From assembly GCA_039196715.1 (NCBI GenBank), contig JBCCUP010000021.1, positions 1 through 64,000 on the forward strand: 64,000 nucleotides of DNA, in the 5' to 3' direction. Under the pieces are notes generated by a model that was not told where the DNA came from, did not search any database, and worked only from the letters and a program-made list of their open reading frames with translations. Shown piece after piece: positions 3,780-24,519 of this stretch (position 1 is its first letter; each line of letters opens with the position of its first letter). Origin of the DNA: Pseudomonadota bacterium. GTDB taxonomy: Bacteria; Pseudomonadota; Gammaproteobacteria; CALCKW01. Both the position numbers and the translations under genes were made by a program.

Positions 3780-4934
3780 GTGGATTTTGAACTCAACGCA
3801 GATCAGCAGGCCTTTGTTGATCTCGCGACGCAATTCTCCGAGAACGAGCTGGCGCCGCACGCGGCCCGGTGGGATGCGGAACACGTGTTCCCGGTCGACA
3901 CCCTGCGCCGCGCCGGCGAGCTCGGCCTGTGTGGGCTGTATGCACCGGCGGCCGCAGGCGGCCTCGGGCTGCCGCGACTCGACAGCGCGCTGGTGTTCGA
4001 AGCGCTCTCCCGTGGCTGCACCTCGACAACCGCCTACATCTCGATCCACAACATGGCGACCTGGATGGTGGGCACGTTCGGGTCGCAAGACACCGTGGAC
4101 GCGCTCGGCGACCCGCTCTGCCAGGGGCAAAAACTCGCGTCCTACTGCCTGACCGAACCCGGTGCAGGTTCCGACGCGGCGTCCCTGCGCACCTCGGCCG
4201 TGCGCGACGGCGACCACTACACGTTGAGCGGCAACAAGATCTTCATCTCCGGCGCTGGCGGCACCGACGTGCTGGTGGTCATGGCGCGCACTGGCGAGGC
4301 CGGTGCGCGCGGCATCTCGGCCTTCGCGGTGGACGCCGACAGCGACGGCATCAGTTTCGGGCGCAACGAGGACAAACTCGGCTGGCACAGTCAGCCGACG
4401 CGGCAGGTGAACTTCGACGCGGTGCGTGTGCCGGCCGACCGACGCCTCGGGGAGGAGGGCGACGGCTTCCGCATCGCCATGGCCGGCCTCGATGGCGGGC
4501 GCATCAACATCGCCGCCTGCAGCCTCGGCACGGCACAAATGGCGCTGGAGCAGAGCCGCGACTACCTCCTGCAACGCAAGCAGTTCGGTCGCCCGATCGC
4601 CGATTTCCAGGGCTTGCAATTTCGCCTTGCGGACATGGCGACCGAGCTCGTCGCGGCACGGCAGCTGGTGCGACTTGCCGCCAGCAAACTCGATCGCGAC
4701 GACCCCGACAAAACCACCTACGCAGCCATGGCCAAGCGCTTTGCCACCGATGTCGGCCACCGGGTCTGCGACGAAGCGCTGCAGCTCCACGGTGGCATCG
4801 GCTACATCCGCGAGTACCCGTTCGAGCGTTATCTGCGGGATACACGAGTGCACCGCATCCTCGAAGGCAGCAACGAAATCATGCGCGTCCTGGTGGCGCG
4901 TCGGCTGCTGGACAGCGAGGTTCCGCTGACTTGA
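3780..4934 (+). CDS. Isobutyryl-CoA dehydrogenase-like acyl-CoA dehydrogenase
   Basis: FAD enzyme of 384 residues that should oxidise isobutyryl-CoA to methacrylyl-CoA. It has the acyl-CoA dehydrogenase signatures: CLTEPGAGSDAASL, the GNKIFISGAGG block, DGGRINIAACSLG, the LHGGIGYIREYP motif and the catalytic Glu362 in RILEGSNEIMR. The start is GTG at 3780 (MDFELNADQQAF after initiation). The next two genes are 3-hydroxyisobutyryl-CoA hydrolase and 3-hydroxyisobutyrate dehydrogenase, which makes the valine-specific (ACAD8-like) assignment much better than a generic one. Electrons would pass to electron-transfer flavoprotein, not encoded here. Confidence 0.87.
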   Translation: MDFELNADQQAFVDLATQFSENELAPHAARWDAEHVFPVDTLRRAGELGLCGLYAPAAAGGLGLPRLDSALVFEALSRGCTSTTAYISIHNMATWMVGTFGSQDTVDALGDPLCQGQKLASYCLTEPGAGSDAASLRTSAVRDGDHYTLSGNKIFISGAGGTDVLVVMARTGEAGARGISAFAVDADSDGISFGRNEDKLGWHSQPTRQVNFDAVRVPADRRLGEEGDGFRIAMAGLDGGRINIAACSLGTAQMALEQSRDYLLQRKQFGRPIADFQGLQFRLADMATELVAARQLVRLAASKLDRDDPDKTTYAAMAKRFATDVGHRVCDEALQLHGGIGYIREYPFERYLRDTRVHRILEGSNEIMRVLVARRLLDSEVPLT

Positions 4935-16966: not shown

Positions 16967-17656
16967 ATGCTGGTTCTGCTTGTCGAAGACCACCGACTGC
17001 TTGCTGAGACGCTGATCGACTACCTCGAGAACGAGGACATCGAGTGCGACTACGCGGCGACTGGAAACGCAGGCCTGACGCTCGCGCAGGAGAACCGCTA
17101 CGATGCGATCGTGCTCGATGTCGGCTTGCCCGGCCTCTCGGGCCTCGACGTGTGCCGCGCGATCCGCAGCAGCGGCGTGCGGGACGTGCCGATTCTCATG
17201 TTGACCGCGCGTGATGAACTCGACGACAAGCTCAACGGATTCGAGGCCGGTGCGGACGACTATCTGGTCAAACCCTTCGAGCAGCGGGAACTGGTGGCGC
17301 GCTTGCGCGCGGTCACCAACCGGCACCGCGGCGTCTGGTCGCAACCCACGCTCGGCGTCGGCGATCTCGAGCTCGACACCGCGTCCTACCGGGTCACCCG
17401 CGCCGGTCAACGCATCAAGCTGTCGCCGGTGGGGTTCAAACTCCTGCACCTGCTGCTGCGGGAATCACCGGCTGTGGTGTCTCGTGCGGCCATGCTCAAC
17501 GCGCTCTGGGGTGACGACCTGCCGGACACCGACGCGCTGCGCAGTCACCTCTACAACCTGCGGCGTGCGGTCGATCAACCTTTCGATGTGCCGATGATCG
17601 AAACGGTCAAGGGCGTGGGGGTCAGGTTGGTTCCACCGCCGACAGCACCACGCTGA
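16967..17656 (+). CDS. OmpR/PhoB-family response regulator
   Basis: A 229-residue two-component regulator. The receiver domain (1-115) has the acidic pair Glu7/Asp8, the phosphoacceptor Asp51 in IVLDVGLPG, Thr80 and Lys102 in YLVKPF. The C-terminal winged helix (about 130-225) ends with the usual MIETVKGVGVRL beta-hairpin. The cognate kinase is most likely the gene that converges on it, whose last 35 bp overlap the end of this one on the opposite strand. Target genes are not known; the sequence gives no sign of the stimulus. Confidence 0.92.
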   Translation: MLVLLVEDHRLLAETLIDYLENEDIECDYAATGNAGLTLAQENRYDAIVLDVGLPGLSGLDVCRAIRSSGVRDVPILMLTARDELDDKLNGFEAGADDYLVKPFEQRELVARLRAVTNRHRGVWSQPTLGVGDLELDTASYRVTRAGQRIKLSPVGFKLLHLLLRESPAVVSRAAMLNALWGDDLPDTDALRSHLYNLRRAVDQPFDVPMIETVKGVGVRLVPPPTAPR

Positions 17657-18944
17657 TTTCCGTGCCCTGTCCGGGGTGGCTCTGCCAGTGAAGCGACCAG
17701 CCAAAGCGTTCGCAAACCCGTTTGACGATGTCGAGGCCCAGCCCGTGCCCTGCGGCGGCATCTGATTCACGGGCAAAGGGCGCTTGTATGCGCGACAAGG
17801 TGTCGAAGCTCATGCCCGGACCGGTGTCGGTGATCACCACGCGGTCGTGCATCATCGAGATGCGCACGCGGCCCTCGGGCGTGTAGTTGCAGGCGTTGCG
17901 CAGCAGGTTGCCGATGACAATCGCCAGGGCCTGTCGAGGCGCTTCGACGGCGATCGGCTGTTGCACGTCCACCGAGATCTCCACGTGGCCTTCGGGGTTG
18001 TGTGTGCTCGACACCTGCTCGACCAGGCGATTGAGCCAGTCCTGACTTACGGTGTTGCCCGTGCCAGGCTCTGCGTCCTCGCGCGCCAGCAGCAGCAGCG
18101 TCTCCATGGTCGAGAGCATGTCCTGGCAGGTTGAGCGGATGCGGCTGATTGCGCGTGTGCGCTTGTCGTGGTCCGGGTTGGCATCGAGCAGGTCGAGCGA
18201 ACCCAATACGACGGCCAACGGCGTGCGGATCTCGTGACTGATGTCGCGGGTGAATTCGCGTTCGCGCACGATCTGCTGTTGCAACCGCGATGTGAAGGCC
18301 TTGAGCGCGCCCGCGAGTGTGCGCACCTCGTGCGTCTGGTTGGTTTGGGTGTAGGCGTCGAGCCGCAGGTCGTCGAGCTTCTGGGTGTAGAGATTGAAGT
18401 GGCGCATGGTCGAGGCGAGTGAGGTGACCGGTGACAGGAAGCGGGCCGAGTACCGGTAGGCAAGCCAGGCCGAGGCGTAGATCACCACCAGCGCCAGGCT
18501 GAGTGGCACCACGCCGAAGTAGAACGACAAGCGCCGCACGCTCTGCTCGTCGAACACCAGCACCAGCCGTTGCCCGGCTTCCGTGGACACGTGGATCAGC
18601 GTGTCGAGGTCCGCGCGTTGCCAGCGCTGGAATCCGAGTGGGGCCTCAGCGAACTCGGTGGCCTCCGCGACGGGGGACAGGTGGCCGAGCAGGTTTGCCG
18701 TGTTCGGCGCCGGGTGTGAGGCGTCGTGCGAGCGCGCATCCCAGAAGTGTGCAGCCTCCTTTTCGAGTGCCGTGCGCACCATGACCTTCTCGACAACGAT
18801 GGCCGCCACGTACACACCGAGTGCCGTGATGACGCTGATGAACAGCATTTGCAGGATGTGCACGCGGAACAGGGTGCCGAGCAGTCCCTGACCGTCCAGT
18901 GGTGTCGCGAGGTCTTCACGTTGCGTTGACATGGGCTCACTCAC
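17622..18944 (-). CDS. Membrane sensor histidine kinase
   Basis: A 440-residue inner-membrane kinase. Two membrane segments (about 29-52 and 142-165) flank a roughly 90-residue periplasmic sensor. Then come a HAMP-like linker, the dimerisation helix with the phosphorylated His237 in DISHEIRTPLA, and the ATP-binding domain with N box NLLRNACNYTP, G1 box DTGPGMS and G2 box GHGLGLDIV. It is paired with the neighbouring response regulator but transcribed towards it, an unusual order because such pairs are normally co-transcribed. The sensor region matches nothing I recognise. Confidence 0.9.
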   Translation of the reverse strand: MSEPMSTQREDLATPLDGQGLLGTLFRVHILQMLFISVITALGVYVAAIVVEKVMVRTALEKEAAHFWDARSHDASHPAPNTANLLGHLSPVAEATEFAEAPLGFQRWQRADLDTLIHVSTEAGQRLVLVFDEQSVRRLSFYFGVVPLSLALVVIYASAWLAYRYSARFLSPVTSLASTMRHFNLYTQKLDDLRLDAYTQTNQTHEVRTLAGALKAFTSRLQQQIVREREFTRDISHEIRTPLAVVLGSLDLLDANPDHDKRTRAISRIRSTCQDMLSTMETLLLLAREDAEPGTGNTVSQDWLNRLVEQVSSTHNPEGHVEISVDVQQPIAVEAPRQALAIVIGNLLRNACNYTPEGRVRISMMHDRVVITDTGPGMSFDTLSRIQAPFARESDAAAGHGLGLDIVKRVCERFGWSLHWQSHPGQGTEISVVLSAVEPT

Positions 18945-18986: not shown

Positions 18987-19805
18987 GTGGAGTCGCAAAA
19001 TCATAACGAATCACCTGTCGGCGAACCGCCCGCAGTGCAGCGCCTGAAGGCGATGTACGCGCACTTCGGTCGAGAGATGCTGGCCGACGTGCCCGAAGTG
19101 TACAGCGACGATGTGGTGTTCCAGGACCCCGTGCACCGCATCGAAGGCCTGAGCGATTTGCAAGCCTACCTGGCGCGGACCGCACAGAACATCACCGAGT
19201 GCCGTTTCAGCTTCTCCGCCGTGCAGTGCTTGCCGGACAACAGCGCCTGGCTGCAATGGACCATGCACTACGCACACCCCCGGCTCGCGGGCGGCACGCC
19301 CCTGAGCCTCGACGGTGCCACCCACGTGCGCTTTGGCGATCGCATCCACTACCACCGCGACTACCTCGACCTCGGTGCCATGTTGTACGAGCACGTGCCT
19401 GTGGTCGGCGGTGCCGTGCGTTGGCTCAAAAGCAGGAGGGCGGATGAAGCAGGTTCTTGTCACCGGTGCGAGCTCCGGCATCGGCGCGGCCCTGGTGCGC
19501 GAATACACCGTGAACGGGTGGCAGGTGACCGCCTGCGGCCGCGACCGCAGCCGATTGGATGCACTCGCGGAGGAGACGGGCTGCGCCGTGCTCGAGTTCG
19601 ATGTGGCCGACCGCGAAGCCTGCGTGGCGGCACTCGGCGGTGTGGACACGCCCTGGGACCTCGTTGTCTTGAACGCGGGCACCTGCGAATACATCGACGA
19701 TGCGCGCCAGTTCGACGCTGCGCTGGTCGAGCGGGTCATGCGCGTCAACGTTCTCGGCACGGCCAACTGCCTTCAGGGGGTGTTGCCGGGCTTGCAACGT
19801 GGTAG
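18987..19805 (+). CDS. SnoaL/NTF2-like protein, probable frameshift near its 3' end
   Basis: The first 150 codons form a SnoaL/NTF2-like cone fold (RLKAMYAHFGREML, VVFQDPVHRIEGL, FGDRIHYHRDYLDLG, ending GGAVRWLK), the usual length for this family. The frame then stays open another 120 codons, to 19805, overlapping the following SDR gene by 362 bp; that tail is Arg-rich and looks like a shadow of the SDR sequence. One extra base in the AAAA run near 19430 would instead end the protein at the TGA at 19445-19447, overlapping the SDR ATG as ATGA, the style used throughout this operon. I therefore trust only 18987 to about 19440. GTG start. Confidence 0.6.
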   Translation: MESQNHNESPVGEPPAVQRLKAMYAHFGREMLADVPEVYSDDVVFQDPVHRIEGLSDLQAYLARTAQNITECRFSFSAVQCLPDNSAWLQWTMHYAHPRLAGGTPLSLDGATHVRFGDRIHYHRDYLDLGAMLYEHVPVVGGAVRWLKSRRADEAGSCHRCELRHRRGPGARIHRERVAGDRLRPRPQPIGCTRGGDGLRRARVRCGRPRSLRGGTRRCGHALGPRCLERGHLRIHRRCAPVRRCAGRAGHARQRSRHGQLPSGGVAGLATW

Positions 19806-20163
19806 CCGAATCGCGATCGTGGGCTCGATGGCGACCTACCTGCCGTTCAGTCGGGCGTCAGCCTACGGCGGCAGCAAGGCGGCGCTCGCGTACATGGCGG
19901 GTTCGCTCGACGCCGACCTGGCCGCCGATGGCATCCACGTCAGCCTCGTGAGCCCGGGATTCGTGGAGACGCCGCTGACCGACAAGAACACCTTCAAGAT
20001 GCCGATGATCATCTCGGCCGAGCAGGCCGCGGCGTCGATCCGCGATGGGCTCGACCGAGGCAGGGCGCACGTCTGTGCGCCCTGGCTGTTCTGCATGATG
20101 TTGCGTGTACTCGGTCGGCTGCCGACCGGCTGGCGCGTAGCGCTGGCGAGGAAGATGGCCTGA
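19444..20163 (+). CDS. Short-chain dehydrogenase/reductase (SDR)
   Basis: A 239-residue classical SDR: TGASSGIGAAL at residues 7-17 binds the nucleotide, LNAGTCEY is the NNAG equivalent, and the Ser/Tyr/Lys triad appears as GSMATYL and SAYGGSKAAL. A hydrophobic, basic C-terminus (LPTGWRVALARKMA) may contact membrane. ATG 19444 is preceded by AGGAGGG at 19433-19439. It is the second gene of the seven-gene lipid operon and overlaps the next start by TGATG. The substrate is probably a lipid or fatty-acyl intermediate, by context only. Confidence 0.88.
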   Translation: MKQVLVTGASSGIGAALVREYTVNGWQVTACGRDRSRLDALAEETGCAVLEFDVADREACVAALGGVDTPWDLVVLNAGTCEYIDDARQFDAALVERVMRVNVLGTANCLQGVLPGLQRGSRIAIVGSMATYLPFSRASAYGGSKAALAYMAGSLDADLAADGIHVSLVSPGFVETPLTDKNTFKMPMIISAEQAAASIRDGLDRGRAHVCAPWLFCMMLRVLGRLPTGWRVALARKMA

Positions 20164-21446
20164 TGCACAGTGCAACACAGCGCGATGGCCAGCGCATCGC
20201 CGTGGTGGGGTCGGGTGTCTCCGGTCTCGTCAGCGCAATGCGCCTTTCGACCCGGCACCACGTCGATCTCTACGAGAGCGAGCCACGGCTCGGTGGCCAC
20301 ACGGCCACCATTCCGGTGTCGGTGCCGGAGGGCGATTTCGCCATCGACACCGGATTCATCGTGTTCAACGACCGCAACTACCCGCGGTTCAGGAAGATCA
20401 TCGACGACCTCGGTCTCGCCTACCAGCCGACCGAGATGAGCTTCAGCGTGACCGACCCGGTCGACGGCTGGGTGTTCAACGGCCACACCCCCAACTCGCT
20501 GTTCTGCGACCGCCGCAATCTGCTCAAGCCGGCGTTTTACCGTTTCCTGCTCGAGATTGCGCGGTTCAACAAGGTTGCCAAGGCGCGTCTCGCCGAAACG
20601 GCGCCGATCAGCACCGACCTCACCGTCGGTGATCTGCTGCGCGAGGGCCGTTTCAGCGATGACCTCGCCCGCAAATACCTGCTGCCGATGGGGGCGGCCA
20701 TCTGGTCGTCTTCGCTCGCCGACGTGCGCGAGTACCCGCTGCCGTTCTTTCTGCAGTTCTTCGAGAACCACGGGCTGCTGGACCTCGTCAACCGGCCCCA
20801 GTGGTTCACGCTGGTCGGCGGGTCGTCGTCCTACATCCCGCACTTCACGGAGTCGATCAGCGGCGACATCCGTGTCGGGTCGGGTATCGCACGCGTGGCG
20901 CGCAGCGACGACGGCGTGCAACTCGTGACCGACTCGGGTCAGCGCGCGGACTACGACCGCGTCGTGCTGGCCTGCCACAGCGACCAGGCGCTCGGCCTGC
21001 TCGACGCTCCCACCGAGGCTGAGCAACGGGTGCTCGAAGCGATTCCCTACCGGGAAAACCGGGTGATCCTGCACCGTGACGAAACCGCCTTGCCGGCGAC
21101 ACAACTCGCACGCGCGAGTTGGAACTACCGCTTGGGCGCCGACGAGGCAACGCCGCCCTCGGTGACCTACAGCATGAACATCCTGCAGTGCCTGCCGGCC
21201 GATGCGCCGCAGTTCTGCGTCACGCTCAACCCGAACCACGCCATCCGCGAGGAGAGCATCCTCGGCGAGTACCGCTACGCGCACCCGCAGTTCGGCGTCG
21301 ACATGATCGCCGCCCAGACCCAACGGGGCGACATCTGTGGCGTCGACCGCATCCACTACTGCGGCGCGTACTGGTACAACGGCTTCCACGAGGACGGCGT
21401 GCGCAGTGCGCTCGACGTCTGCGAACAACTTGGATGCTCCGTATGA
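20163..21446 (+). CDS. FAD-dependent amine oxidase-like oxidoreductase (desaturase-like)
   Basis: A 427-residue flavoprotein with the dinucleotide motif IAVVGSGVSGLVSAM followed by YESEPRLGGHT and IDTGFIVFN, and the C-terminal FAD contact IHYCGAYWYNGFHEDGVRSAL. It belongs to the amine oxidase/phytoene desaturase-like group that is regularly found beside DUF1365 and CFA-like methyltransferase genes. In Rhodobacter a member of such a cluster (UfaD, as I recall it) acts in furan fatty acid synthesis, so a role on unsaturated or methylated acyl chains is plausible here. It overlaps both neighbours by a few bases, showing tight translational coupling. Confidence 0.85.
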   Translation: MHSATQRDGQRIAVVGSGVSGLVSAMRLSTRHHVDLYESEPRLGGHTATIPVSVPEGDFAIDTGFIVFNDRNYPRFRKIIDDLGLAYQPTEMSFSVTDPVDGWVFNGHTPNSLFCDRRNLLKPAFYRFLLEIARFNKVAKARLAETAPISTDLTVGDLLREGRFSDDLARKYLLPMGAAIWSSSLADVREYPLPFFLQFFENHGLLDLVNRPQWFTLVGGSSSYIPHFTESISGDIRVGSGIARVARSDDGVQLVTDSGQRADYDRVVLACHSDQALGLLDAPTEAEQRVLEAIPYRENRVILHRDETALPATQLARASWNYRLGADEATPPSVTYSMNILQCLPADAPQFCVTLNPNHAIREESILGEYRYAHPQFGVDMIAAQTQRGDICGVDRIHYCGAYWYNGFHEDGVRSALDVCEQLGCSV

Positions 21447-22150
21447 ACAGCGCGCTCTACACCGGCTGGGTGCGGCACCGACGCTTCGCACCGGTGTTGC
21501 ACCGGTTTCGCTACCGTGCACTCGCGCTGGCGATTGATCTCGACGACCTGCCCACCCTCGACCGTTGGCCGCTGCTTGCCGTGGACCGCTTCGGCCTGAT
21601 GTCGATTCGGCAGTCGGACTACCTCGACGGCGAGTTGACGCGCGATCGGGTGTGGGATGCCGTCGAAACCCTGGGTGGTGAGCGAGACGGGGGCAGGGTG
21701 GTGTTTCTTGGTCTGCCGCGCAGCCTCGGGTACTACTTCAGTCCGGTGAATTTCTTTTACTGCCACGACGCGGAGGGCGCGCTGTCGAGCATTCTGGTTG
21801 AAGTCAGCAACACACCCTGGCGTGAGCGGCACCGCTACCTGGTCAACTACCGCGAGCTGGCGCCGACGCCCAAAGCCTTTCACGTGTCCCCTTTCATGGA
21901 CATGGACCAGCTCTACCGCTGGCGATTCACCGAGCTGCGCGAGCGGCTCTGCGTGCACATCGAGAACCACGCCGACGACAAGCTCTTCGATGCCACGCTC
22001 GTGCTGGACAGAAAACCCCTAACCGGTTGGCGTTGTGCGCTGGCCTTGATTCGATCACCCGCGGTGTGTTTGCAGGTGATGGCTGCGATCTACTGGCAAG
22101 CCATGCACTTGTACCGAAAGGGTGTGAAATACGTACCGCACCCGCGCTGA
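21443..22150 (+). CDS. DUF1365 domain-containing protein
   Basis: A 235-residue protein of DUF1365: starts MNSALYTGWVRHRRFAPVLHRFRY, contains FLGLPRSLGYYFSPVNFFYCHD, the strongest family signature, and VSNTPWRERHRYLV, and ends in a hydrophobic segment that may touch the membrane. The biochemical role is unknown. It is nearly always located between an FAD oxidoreductase and a CFA-like methyltransferase. I chose ATG 21443 because it forms an ATGA overlap with the preceding stop; ATG 21434 in the same frame would add three residues. Confidence 0.87.
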   Translation: MNSALYTGWVRHRRFAPVLHRFRYRALALAIDLDDLPTLDRWPLLAVDRFGLMSIRQSDYLDGELTRDRVWDAVETLGGERDGGRVVFLGLPRSLGYYFSPVNFFYCHDAEGALSSILVEVSNTPWRERHRYLVNYRELAPTPKAFHVSPFMDMDQLYRWRFTELRERLCVHIENHADDKLFDATLVLDRKPLTGWRCALALIRSPAVCLQVMAAIYWQAMHLYRKGVKYVPHPR

Positions 22151-22164
22151 TTGGAGAGAACGCG

Positions 22165-23415
22165 ATGACAGAGATGCGAGCAACAGCTGCAGTTGAAATG
22201 CAACCCCGGTTAAATCTGGCCCGACGGCTCGTGTTGAAGCTGCTCGGTGAAATACGCGTGGGTCGACTCACCCTGATCGACGGCCCGCAGCGGCACGTTT
22301 TTGGCGGAACGCTAGACGGGCCGAGCGCCACCATCGAGGTCAATCGGGAAGCGGCGTACACGCGCGTGCTGCGGTCTGGCGTCACCGGGGCGGGCGAGGC
22401 CTTTTTCGAGGGGGATTGGGACACGCCCGACCTCACCGCCGTGGTGCGCCTTTTCGTGCTCAACCGCAACACCATGCGCACCATGAACGGGGGACTGGCA
22501 CGCACCGGGCGGGTGCTTCACCGGTTGTGGCACTGGGCGCGTCGAAACTCGGTTGCCGGGTCGAAGCGGAACATCAGCGCGCACTACGACATCAGCAATG
22601 CCTTTTTCGAGACGATTCTGGACGAGTCGATGATGTACTCGAGCGCGCTGTTCCAGACCGACTCGGACTCGCTCGCGCAGGCCCAGCAGAACAAACTTGC
22701 CCGCCTGTGCGAGCTGCTCGATCTTCAGCCGGGCGACCACGTGCTCGAGATCGGCACTGGCTGGGGCGGCCTGGCCGAGTACGCTGCCAAGCACCACGAC
22801 GTCGTGGTGACCACGACCACGATATCGCAGGCGCAGTTCCAGTTTGCCAAAGCCCGCATTGCGCGGGCGGGACTCGAGGGGCGTGTGCACCTGCTCGACA
22901 GTGACTACCGGGCCCTGACCGGGCGCTACGACAAGATCGTCTCGGTAGAGATGATCGAGGCCGTGGGCGAAGAGCACCTGCCGACCTTCTTCAAGACCTG
23001 CAATGACCTGCTGCGGCCGGGCGGGCGCCTCGTGCTCCAGGCCATCACGATCCCGGACGCCTACTACGACGACTACCGGCGCAGCACCGACTTCATTCAG
23101 CGCTACGTGTTTCCGGGCGGCTTCCTGCCCTCACTCGGCGCCATGGAGCGCATCATGAACCGTGACACCGCGCTGCGGGTCTCGAGTGTCGATGACATCG
23201 GCTTGCATTATGCAAAGACCCTGCGGGTCTGGCACGACAAGCTGATCGCGGCCCGCAACACGGTGTCGAGCTTCGGCTTTGATGAGCGCATGTACCGGTT
23301 GTGGCGCTATTACTTCAGTTACTGCGAAGGCGGTTTTGCCGAGCAGGCCATATCCACCGTGCATTTGGTGGCGAACAAATCAGCCGATGGGGGCGCGGGC
23401 GATGGAGCGACGTGA
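22165..23415 (+). CDS. Cyclopropane-fatty-acyl-phospholipid synthase-like methyltransferase
   Basis: A SAM-dependent methyltransferase of 416 residues. The N-terminal lipid-binding region is followed by NISAHYDISNAFFETILDESMMYSSALF, the hallmark of CFA synthases, the SAM motif VLEIGTGWGGLAEYAA, SVEMIEAVGEEHLPTFF and the QAITIPDAYYDDYR block. It would methylate cis double bonds of membrane phospholipid acyl chains, giving a cyclopropane or methyl-branched product. SD GGAGAG at 22153-22158 supports ATG 22165. Neighbouring FAD and SDR enzymes suggest the methylated chain is processed further. The 3' end overlaps the next gene by 14 bp. Confidence 0.9.
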   Translation: MTEMRATAAVEMQPRLNLARRLVLKLLGEIRVGRLTLIDGPQRHVFGGTLDGPSATIEVNREAAYTRVLRSGVTGAGEAFFEGDWDTPDLTAVVRLFVLNRNTMRTMNGGLARTGRVLHRLWHWARRNSVAGSKRNISAHYDISNAFFETILDESMMYSSALFQTDSDSLAQAQQNKLARLCELLDLQPGDHVLEIGTGWGGLAEYAAKHHDVVVTTTTISQAQFQFAKARIARAGLEGRVHLLDSDYRALTGRYDKIVSVEMIEAVGEEHLPTFFKTCNDLLRPGGRLVLQAITIPDAYYDDYRRSTDFIQRYVFPGGFLPSLGAMERIMNRDTALRVSSVDDIGLHYAKTLRVWHDKLIAARNTVSSFGFDERMYRLWRYYFSYCEGGFAEQAISTVHLVANKSADGGAGDGAT

Positions 23416-23917
23416 TTGGCTCAACCTGATCCTGTTCAAGCTCGGTTGGGGCGTGGCGGTGGTCGGGGGCGACCCGTGGCTGCTACCGCAGCTCGTGGTG
23501 ATCGCGGCCTCGCTCGCTGTGGTGCGGCCGTCACGCGCGGTGCTGGCCACGGTGGTGGCCGTGGCGCTGCTCGGCATCGGTCGCGATGCGGCACTGGTGC
23601 TTGCCGGCGTGCTCGAAATGGGCAACTCGGTGATGCCGGTGTGGCTCGCGTTGCTCTGGGTGCAGTTTGCGCTGGTGTTGCAACGGGGCATGCACTGGAT
23701 GGCGAAGCTCAGTGAGCCGGTGCAGGTGCCTGTCGGAATGGTCTCCGGCACCTTGGCCTACGCCGCGGCGGTGGGCCTCGGCGCGGGCTCGGTGGGGGGC
23801 GGCGTCGGCAGCGGCGCCGTCGCCTGGGCCGTGATTGCCGTGTCCTGGGGCGCATTGATGTGGCTGCAATTGAAACTCTTAACACGAACACGAGGTCACA
23901 GGGCGCTCGCTCTGTGA
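23402..23917 (+). CDS. DUF2878 membrane protein
   Basis: A 171-residue hydrophobic protein with about five membrane segments, beginning MERRDWLNLILFKLGWGVAVVGG, and containing GMHWMAKLS and PVGMVSGTLAYAAA as in DUF2878. Function is unknown; the family travels with DUF3833 and CFA-like genes in Proteobacteria. ATG 23402 lies inside the end of the methyltransferase gene. The next gene starts at the GTGA overlapping its stop. Confidence 0.8.
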   Translation: MERRDWLNLILFKLGWGVAVVGGDPWLLPQLVVIAASLAVVRPSRAVLATVVAVALLGIGRDAALVLAGVLEMGNSVMPVWLALLWVQFALVLQRGMHWMAKLSEPVQVPVGMVSGTLAYAAAVGLGAGSVGGGVGSGAVAWAVIAVSWGALMWLQLKLLTRTRGHRALAL

Positions 23918-24519
23918 AAATCACCGTGAAAACACTGTCTGCCTACGTCGCGATTGCGTTTATGTGCCTGTCGGTGCTCTCCGCGCCGGCACGTGCTGCC
24001 CACACCAACGAGCCGGAAATCGATCCGTTTCGCTTTGAGCACTTCTTCCAGGGGCCGATCCACGCCCGGGGATTTGTGCGCAACCGGGGCGGTGAGGTCA
24101 TCCGTCGGTTCTGGGCCGAGATTGTCGGCACCTGGGATGAACGCACCGGTGAGCTCACGCTCGATGAAATCCTGCACTTTGACGACGGTGAGGTGTTGGA
24201 GCGTGTCTGGCAGATCGAGCGGCTGGCCAACGGCGAGTACCGCGGCCGCGCCGGCGACGTCGAGGGTGTTGCGACCGGTGAGGTGAGCGGGCCGGACGGT
24301 GTCCTGCGCTACGCGCTCACGGTCCAGTACCGGGGTATGGACCTGGTGCTGAGCGTGGTCGACCGCTTCCACGCCGTGTCTGAAGACGTGATGTACAACA
24401 ACACGCAACTCAAGAAGTTCGGTTTCAACGTTGGCTCCGTGTCGAGTGTGTTTTACAAGGGCGCTGCGATACCGCCTGAGGTGCAGCTACCCAACACGAC
24501 CGCGGCAGTCAGCGACTGA
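23914..24519 (+). CDS. DUF3833 exported protein
   Basis: A 201-residue exported protein. The first 30 residues form a signal peptide (VKTLSAYVAIAFMCLSVL, likely cut after PARA); many relatives are lipoproteins, but I see no lipobox cysteine here. The mature domain has PFRFEHFFQGPIHARGFVRNR and WDERTGELTLDEILHFDDGEVLERVW, the DUF3833 pattern, with a beta-rich lipid-binding look. GTG 23914 is chosen because of its 4 bp overlap with the preceding stop and the signal peptide that follows. It closes the seven-gene operon and ends 8 bp from a convergent gene. Confidence 0.82.
   Translation: MKITVKTLSAYVAIAFMCLSVLSAPARAAHTNEPEIDPFRFEHFFQGPIHARGFVRNRGGEVIRRFWAEIVGTWDERTGELTLDEILHFDDGEVLERVWQIERLANGEYRGRAGDVEGVATGEVSGPDGVLRYALTVQYRGMDLVLSVVDRFHAVSEDVMYNNTQLKKFGFNVGSVSSVFYKGAAIPPEVQLPNTTAAVSD

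Follow-up and report, generated by a model that had tools for sequence, protein, structure and literature searches.

What switches on a lipid-modification operon when the regulators described for its relatives are missing from its surroundings? A link exists between furan fatty acids and singlet-oxygen signalling. The seven-gene operon analyzed here, whose core matches genes of the furan fatty acid (Ufa) pathway, has no member of the ECF, ChrR, MerR-B12 or photolyase clusters within a 19-kb stretch around it, as the original prediction had already stated for ECF, ChrR and photolyase genes. The operon lies in a 64,000-nt stretch of DNA (the window), contig 21 of a 4.95-Mb genome that comprises 169 contigs and is 96% complete. 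Our answer, to which we assign a probability of roughly three in four, is that this furan-lipid operon is run by its own two-component system, acting through a predicted binding box.

Pfam assigned the seven genes to the families that had been named for them, all on the + strand; five of the six junctions overlap, and the DUF1365 and CMAS genes are separated by 14 bp. The regulator and kinase genes are arranged tail-to-tail, and the kinase gene lies head-to-head with the operon (Table 1). The kinase had been described as divergent and 42 bp upstream, with no mention of its partner response regulator. The orientation stands, whereas the distance of 42 bp corresponds to a possible GTG start at 18944; comparison with the related locus L017 makes the ATG at 18932, 54 bp from the operon, the probable start. 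The SnoaL reading frame has no stop codon up to 19805, 362 bp inside the SDR gene. The codon-position GC of this extension (19443-19805) is not coding-like, and in the relatives L017 and L023 the SnoaL gene ends where the SDR gene begins. Either the stop codon was lost recently or its absence is an assembly error. Besides the genome of the window, the comparison set included three others from its genus and no more from its order; the two named relatives are MAGs labelled uncultured Granulosicoccaceae.

Table 1. Features of the operon and its putative control region, in window coordinates
Feature	Position	Strand	Evidence
Response regulator, OmpR/PhoB-type (receiver and winged helix)	16967..17656	+	Response_reg and Trans_reg_C over cut-off (Pfam); neighbor of the kinase at loci linked to the operon
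Sensor histidine kinase (HisKA, HATPase_c)	17622..18932	-	Pfam; start by comparison with L017; family alignment
Proposed response-regulator box, TTCACGT-N4-TTGACAT, direct repeat with 11-bp period	18915..18932	+	Sole exact match in the genome
SnoaL_2/NTF2-like protein, operon gene 1	18987..19443	+	Pfam; GC by codon position
SDR	19444..20163	+	adh_short, 5.5e-36
FAD-dependent desaturase, UfaD-like	20163..21446	+	Amino_oxidase, NAD_binding_8; place in the ufaD-ufaO-ufaM order
DUF1365 protein, UfaO-like	21443..22150	+	PF07103, 9.6e-75
CMAS-family SAM methyltransferase, UfaM-like	22165..23415	+	PF02353, 1e-81; active-site signature S160, E262, E265, Q292, Y349
DUF2878 protein	23402..23917	+	PF11086, 3.2e-23
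DUF3833 protein	23914..24519	+	PF12915, 2.1e-39

Around DUF1365 genes in the sampled loci, the order FAD enzyme, DUF1365 protein, CMAS-family methyltransferase is near-universal, and the window carries these three as neighbors, the same set as R. palustris RPA2571-2569. The R. palustris genes, which are consecutive as they are here, are sufficient for R. sphaeroides to form a methylfuran fatty acid, RPA2571 being ufaD, RPA2570 ufaO (a DUF1365 protein) and RPA2569 ufaM (PMC7380195). The R. sphaeroides pathway (RSP2144/1091/1090) draws on the same FAD desaturase, DUF1365 and CMAS families. In a Halomonas cluster the three ufa genes are likewise consecutive, and its ufaM gave 11-methyloctadec-12-enoate in E. 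coli (PMC12089945). The core genes thus match ufaD-ufaO-ufaM, confirming the proposed relation to the furan genes, and the product predicted from them is likely to be furan-type fatty acids. Four genes had been counted as lacking a function; with DUF1365 recognized as UfaO, the number falls to three. As far as the genes alone tell, the operon differs from the Ufa pathway in adding SnoaL, SDR, DUF2878 and DUF3833 proteins and in having no linked σE-ChrR pair. Our search found no solved structure with sequence resemblance to the DUF1365 protein, and structure prediction was too poor to use (mean pLDDT 46 over three DUF1365 sequences and 44 over two kinase sequences).

In E. coli Cfa, the catalytic bicarbonate is held by Glu239, His266 and Tyr317 (PMC11387697). 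The methyltransferase of the window retains the Glu and Tyr ligands and carries Gln (Q292) in place of His266. We aligned 69 core methyltransferases from 78 DUF1365 loci, excluding nine loci that have no core methyltransferase by the distance rule; two to four rows were unreadable at each position. The His266 position is Gln in 67/67 readable sequences, the Gly236 position is Glu (E262 in the window) in 66/66 and the Tyr317 position is Tyr in 65/65. The Glu/Gln signature also occurs in core enzymes encoded beside an ECF σ factor in Azospirillum and Rhizobium tropici, where the σ factor is accompanied by ChrR or a cupin protein, and in the Aeromonas core enzyme beside a MerR regulator. Among the CMAS proteins of the genome, one match is full-length and four are partial. 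Most of the second CMAS enzymes near the operon (L034-L076) retain His266 but carry Phe in place of Ile268 and Glu in place of Gly236 (signature xEEHFY, in 19 of 25 other, non-core enzymes), a third type of active site.

The original prediction had called the σ factor missing from this locus the usual one. In an even set of 274 gammaproteobacterial genomes, DUF1365 was found in 78 and ChrR scored over its cut-off in nine; each of these nine has a ChrR copy within about 7 kb of DUF1365, and one has a second ChrR elsewhere. Because only 9/78 DUF1365 genomes have ChrR, absence of σE-ChrR is the commoner state, and we discarded the missing σ factor as a remarkable feature. A MerR-B12 regulator was present in 13/78 DUF1365 neighborhoods. 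Labels, that for ECF included, stand for similarity clusters of neighbors, and with clusters required to occur in at least three loci and rarer regulators left unlabelled, 44/78 DUF1365 loci are without a linked regulator of any of the three types (ChrR, MerR-B12, kinase), showing that linked regulators are not general among such loci. A σE-type promoter pattern gave one match near the operon, which was meaningless and was not used.

The two-component system is linked to the operon well beyond the window. Its kinase has a His (H233) that is invariant in 22 aligned kinases, and the kinase family adjoins the operon in 12/78 DUF1365 genomes, from nine families as numbered by the tool. A search of the 274 genomes that used the kinase as query placed nine of its top ten matches beside DUF1365, and the tenth, in G062, belonged to a genome with a complete operon on another contig; ranks 11-18 were unlinked to DUF1365, and ranks 19, 22 and 23 were linked. 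Neither ChrR nor MerR-B12 occurred in the neighborhood of a linked kinase (0/12 loci), for which the probability by chance is 0.013, uncorrected for kinship. The kinase gene is upstream and divergent, upstream and co-directional, or downstream of the operon depending on the genome, and the linkage is therefore more than inherited synteny. Operon-linked kinases fall into more than one clade (four label changes on the tree). The kinase, rightly singled out but treated as a mere neighbor in the original prediction, is, judging by linkage and box, together with its regulator the likely controller.

Other two-component systems were seen in the course of this comparison. Contig 44 of the window's genome (L138) encodes a related kinase/regulator pair, 30% identical and away from the operon. 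At L094, L097, L105 and L060, a different, short kinase (336-348 aa) and a regulator adjoin the operon, a second and unrelated association. In G095, a genome with no DUF1365 match, a related two-component system precedes a second lipid module (L135, 3362-9171) that consists of CMAS (CEEHFY) and DUF2878 proteins followed by DUF1295-, DUF6134- and lipocalin-like proteins, the last three identified by eye.

Five loci with the arrangement regulator > kinase < SnoaL > share the sequence TTCACGTTNNNTTSACRT before the SnoaL gene, a direct repeat with an 11-bp period and the half-site TTSACRT. The pattern was derived from these five loci, three of whose genomes represent one genus. At two or fewer mismatches it was found in 6/8 held-out kinase-group loci and 0/65 other DUF1365 loci (Fisher p = 1.6e-7); shuffled regions matched in 26/800 cases. 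The two held-out loci that were missed, L045 and L073, have a weaker box, with four mismatches or located elsewhere. A relaxed form, TTSAC-N6-TTSAC, chosen post hoc after these two misses, matched 8/8 held-out loci and 1/65 others, the single non-group match (L038) lying away from the operon start. A box is present at the operon start in 13/13 loci, in two of them only by the relaxed form; in 11/13 it precedes the first gene by 15-68 bp, and in 2/13 it overlaps an early SnoaL start call. L081 and L085 have four consecutive half-sites in 11-bp steps. Over 1.53 Mb of loci, the pattern matched 17 times at two or fewer mismatches, 14 of them directly upstream of kinase-group operons; the remaining three are one at position 770 of L085 and one each at L133 and L139, both beside related kinases. 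The L133 site in G159 (3988-4005, one mismatch) lies beside a related kinase/regulator pair, some 100 bp ahead of a gene for a repeat-domain protein that we take to be fasciclin-like.

The 4.95-Mb genome of the window contains a single exact copy of the box, at 18915-18932; each of the four remaining matches has two mismatches, and a reversed-pattern control gave 12 matches. The 12 other genomes with the system contain five exact boxes, all at the operon (5/5), of which four are training loci and the fifth, in G159, is not. A σ70 scan before the operon yielded no promoter that passed; the second half-site in the window reads TTGACA, which is −35-like. The Pho box is a direct repeat with an 11-bp period, and PhoB/OmpR systems have the same domains as the pair described here. 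The half-site TTSACRT differs from their boxes, and each genome apparently has a single exact site, which lies at the lipid operon.

Three other explanations were weighed against control by the neighboring two-component system. An unlinked σE-ChrR pair or MerR-B12 regulator (LitR/PhrR) might control the operon, the two-component genes being bystanders. Both types are known regulators of such operons, σE-ChrR in R. sphaeroides (PMC6852236) and Stenotrophomonas (PMC11832516) and MerR/LitR in Vibrio (PMC5241685) and Pseudomonas (PMC9758184); in V. cholerae, ChrR (VC2301) lies apart from the induced CFA gene (VC1122; PMC5241685), and in 2/13 kinase genomes (G076 and G250) a MerR-B12 relative is encoded elsewhere. 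The genome of the window argues against such a distant regulator: TIGR02451 (ChrR) gave nothing over cut-off and one partial match of 30.7 bits, on a contig with zero sigma70_r2 matches, and a MerR-B12 search at 1e-10 gave zero matches, although the same search recovered 3/3 genomes with a linked regulator. The genus relatives G001 and G003 likewise have no ChrR over cut-off and no MerR-B12, and we consider control from a distance unlikely. That the box is instead an autoregulatory site of the kinase and regulator genes and no switch for the operon would fit its position between kinase and operon in the five training loci, in two of which, the window and L017, it overlaps the first kinase codons, so that part of the conservation of the box in these two may reflect the coding sequence. 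Yet the box stays before the first operon gene where the kinase lies at the far end (L043, L045 and L056), and precedes the operon of G062 (L086) although the kinase is on another contig, which makes a purely autoregulatory role very unlikely.

The third alternative concerns the product: the methyltransferase would be a cyclopropane synthase of the ordinary kind, and the operon would yield cyclopropane lipids or others without a furan. The enzyme's membership of the CMAS family is compatible with this, and E. coli overexpressing Halomonas ufaM contained cyclic fatty acids too (PMC12089945). However, the enzyme scores far under the cut-offs of the NCBIfam Cfa equivalogs (252 against 400, 242 against 650 and 255 against 600), His266 is replaced by Gln in every readable core homologue, and the gene accompanies UfaD- and UfaO-like genes. 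A non-furan product thus appears quite unlikely; judged by its sequence, the methyltransferase falls outside the classical cyclopropane synthases, and we infer that a carboxylate replaces the bicarbonate in the UfaM-type active site.

Under the preferred reading, in which the neighboring two-component system controls a furan-lipid operon, the membrane kinase would sense an envelope signal and phosphorylate the PhoB-type regulator, which would then bind TTCACGT-N4-TTGACAT and activate the operon, standing in for σE-ChrR and for the MerR-B12 regulators LitR and PhrR. On the box, the regulator may also damp kinase synthesis in the window and in L017, although this is a guess. By analogy with the chemistry of R. 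sphaeroides and R. palustris, the UfaM-like enzyme would methylate the double bond of vaccenate on membrane phospholipids to give a methyl-branched chain, into which the UfaD-like enzyme would introduce a second double bond; insertion of oxygen by the UfaO-like protein would then give the furan fatty acyl chain. That the signal is membrane or photo-oxidative damage is likewise a guess; we name it as the first candidate because photolyase genes lie near three kinase-linked loci (L073, L081 and L085) and because related operons are induced by light (PMC5241685, PMC9758184).

A close likeness in gene content is to the light-response operon controlled by the MerR regulator PhrR in Vibrio and Aeromonas. 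The Aeromonas plasmid locus L147 shares the NTF2/SnoaL, SDR, FAD, DUF1365, CMAS, DUF2878 and DUF3833 genes, but has a MerR regulator and phrB in front and two more genes before DUF3833, whereas the operon in the window has the two-component system in front; in V. cholerae, a DUF2878 gene belongs to the PhrR regulon (PMC12971978). Stenotrophomonas smlt2375-2367, a co-induced set encoding a desaturase, an FAD enzyme, a hypothetical protein, two CFA synthases and a lipocalin, differs from the control proposed here in being controlled by an ECF σ factor and ChrR (rpoEc-chrR), near which a two-component cluster is mentioned (PMC11832516). We found no report of two-component control of this operon in the open-access literature, in which PMC5442454 treats NtrYX and lipid secretion. 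The kind of pathway is known, and the regulatory arrangement is well supported by the genome comparisons. In broader terms, it seems an even chance that a periplasm-facing two-component system, acquired repeatedly in Gammaproteobacteria, constitutes a third type of control with a single conserved box, its kinase reading membrane or photo-oxidative damage outside the cytoplasm, in contrast to ChrR, which is cytoplasmic, and to the light regulators that are based on B12.

For annotation, the Glu/Gln active-site signature separates UfaM-type enzymes from cyclopropane synthases. Among the sampled Gammaproteobacteria, the link of σE-ChrR to this lipid pathway is a minority arrangement. If the enzymes of this pathway are driven by a membrane sensor kinase here, that kinase would give access to the signal itself, and each genome would offer a single predicted exact site.
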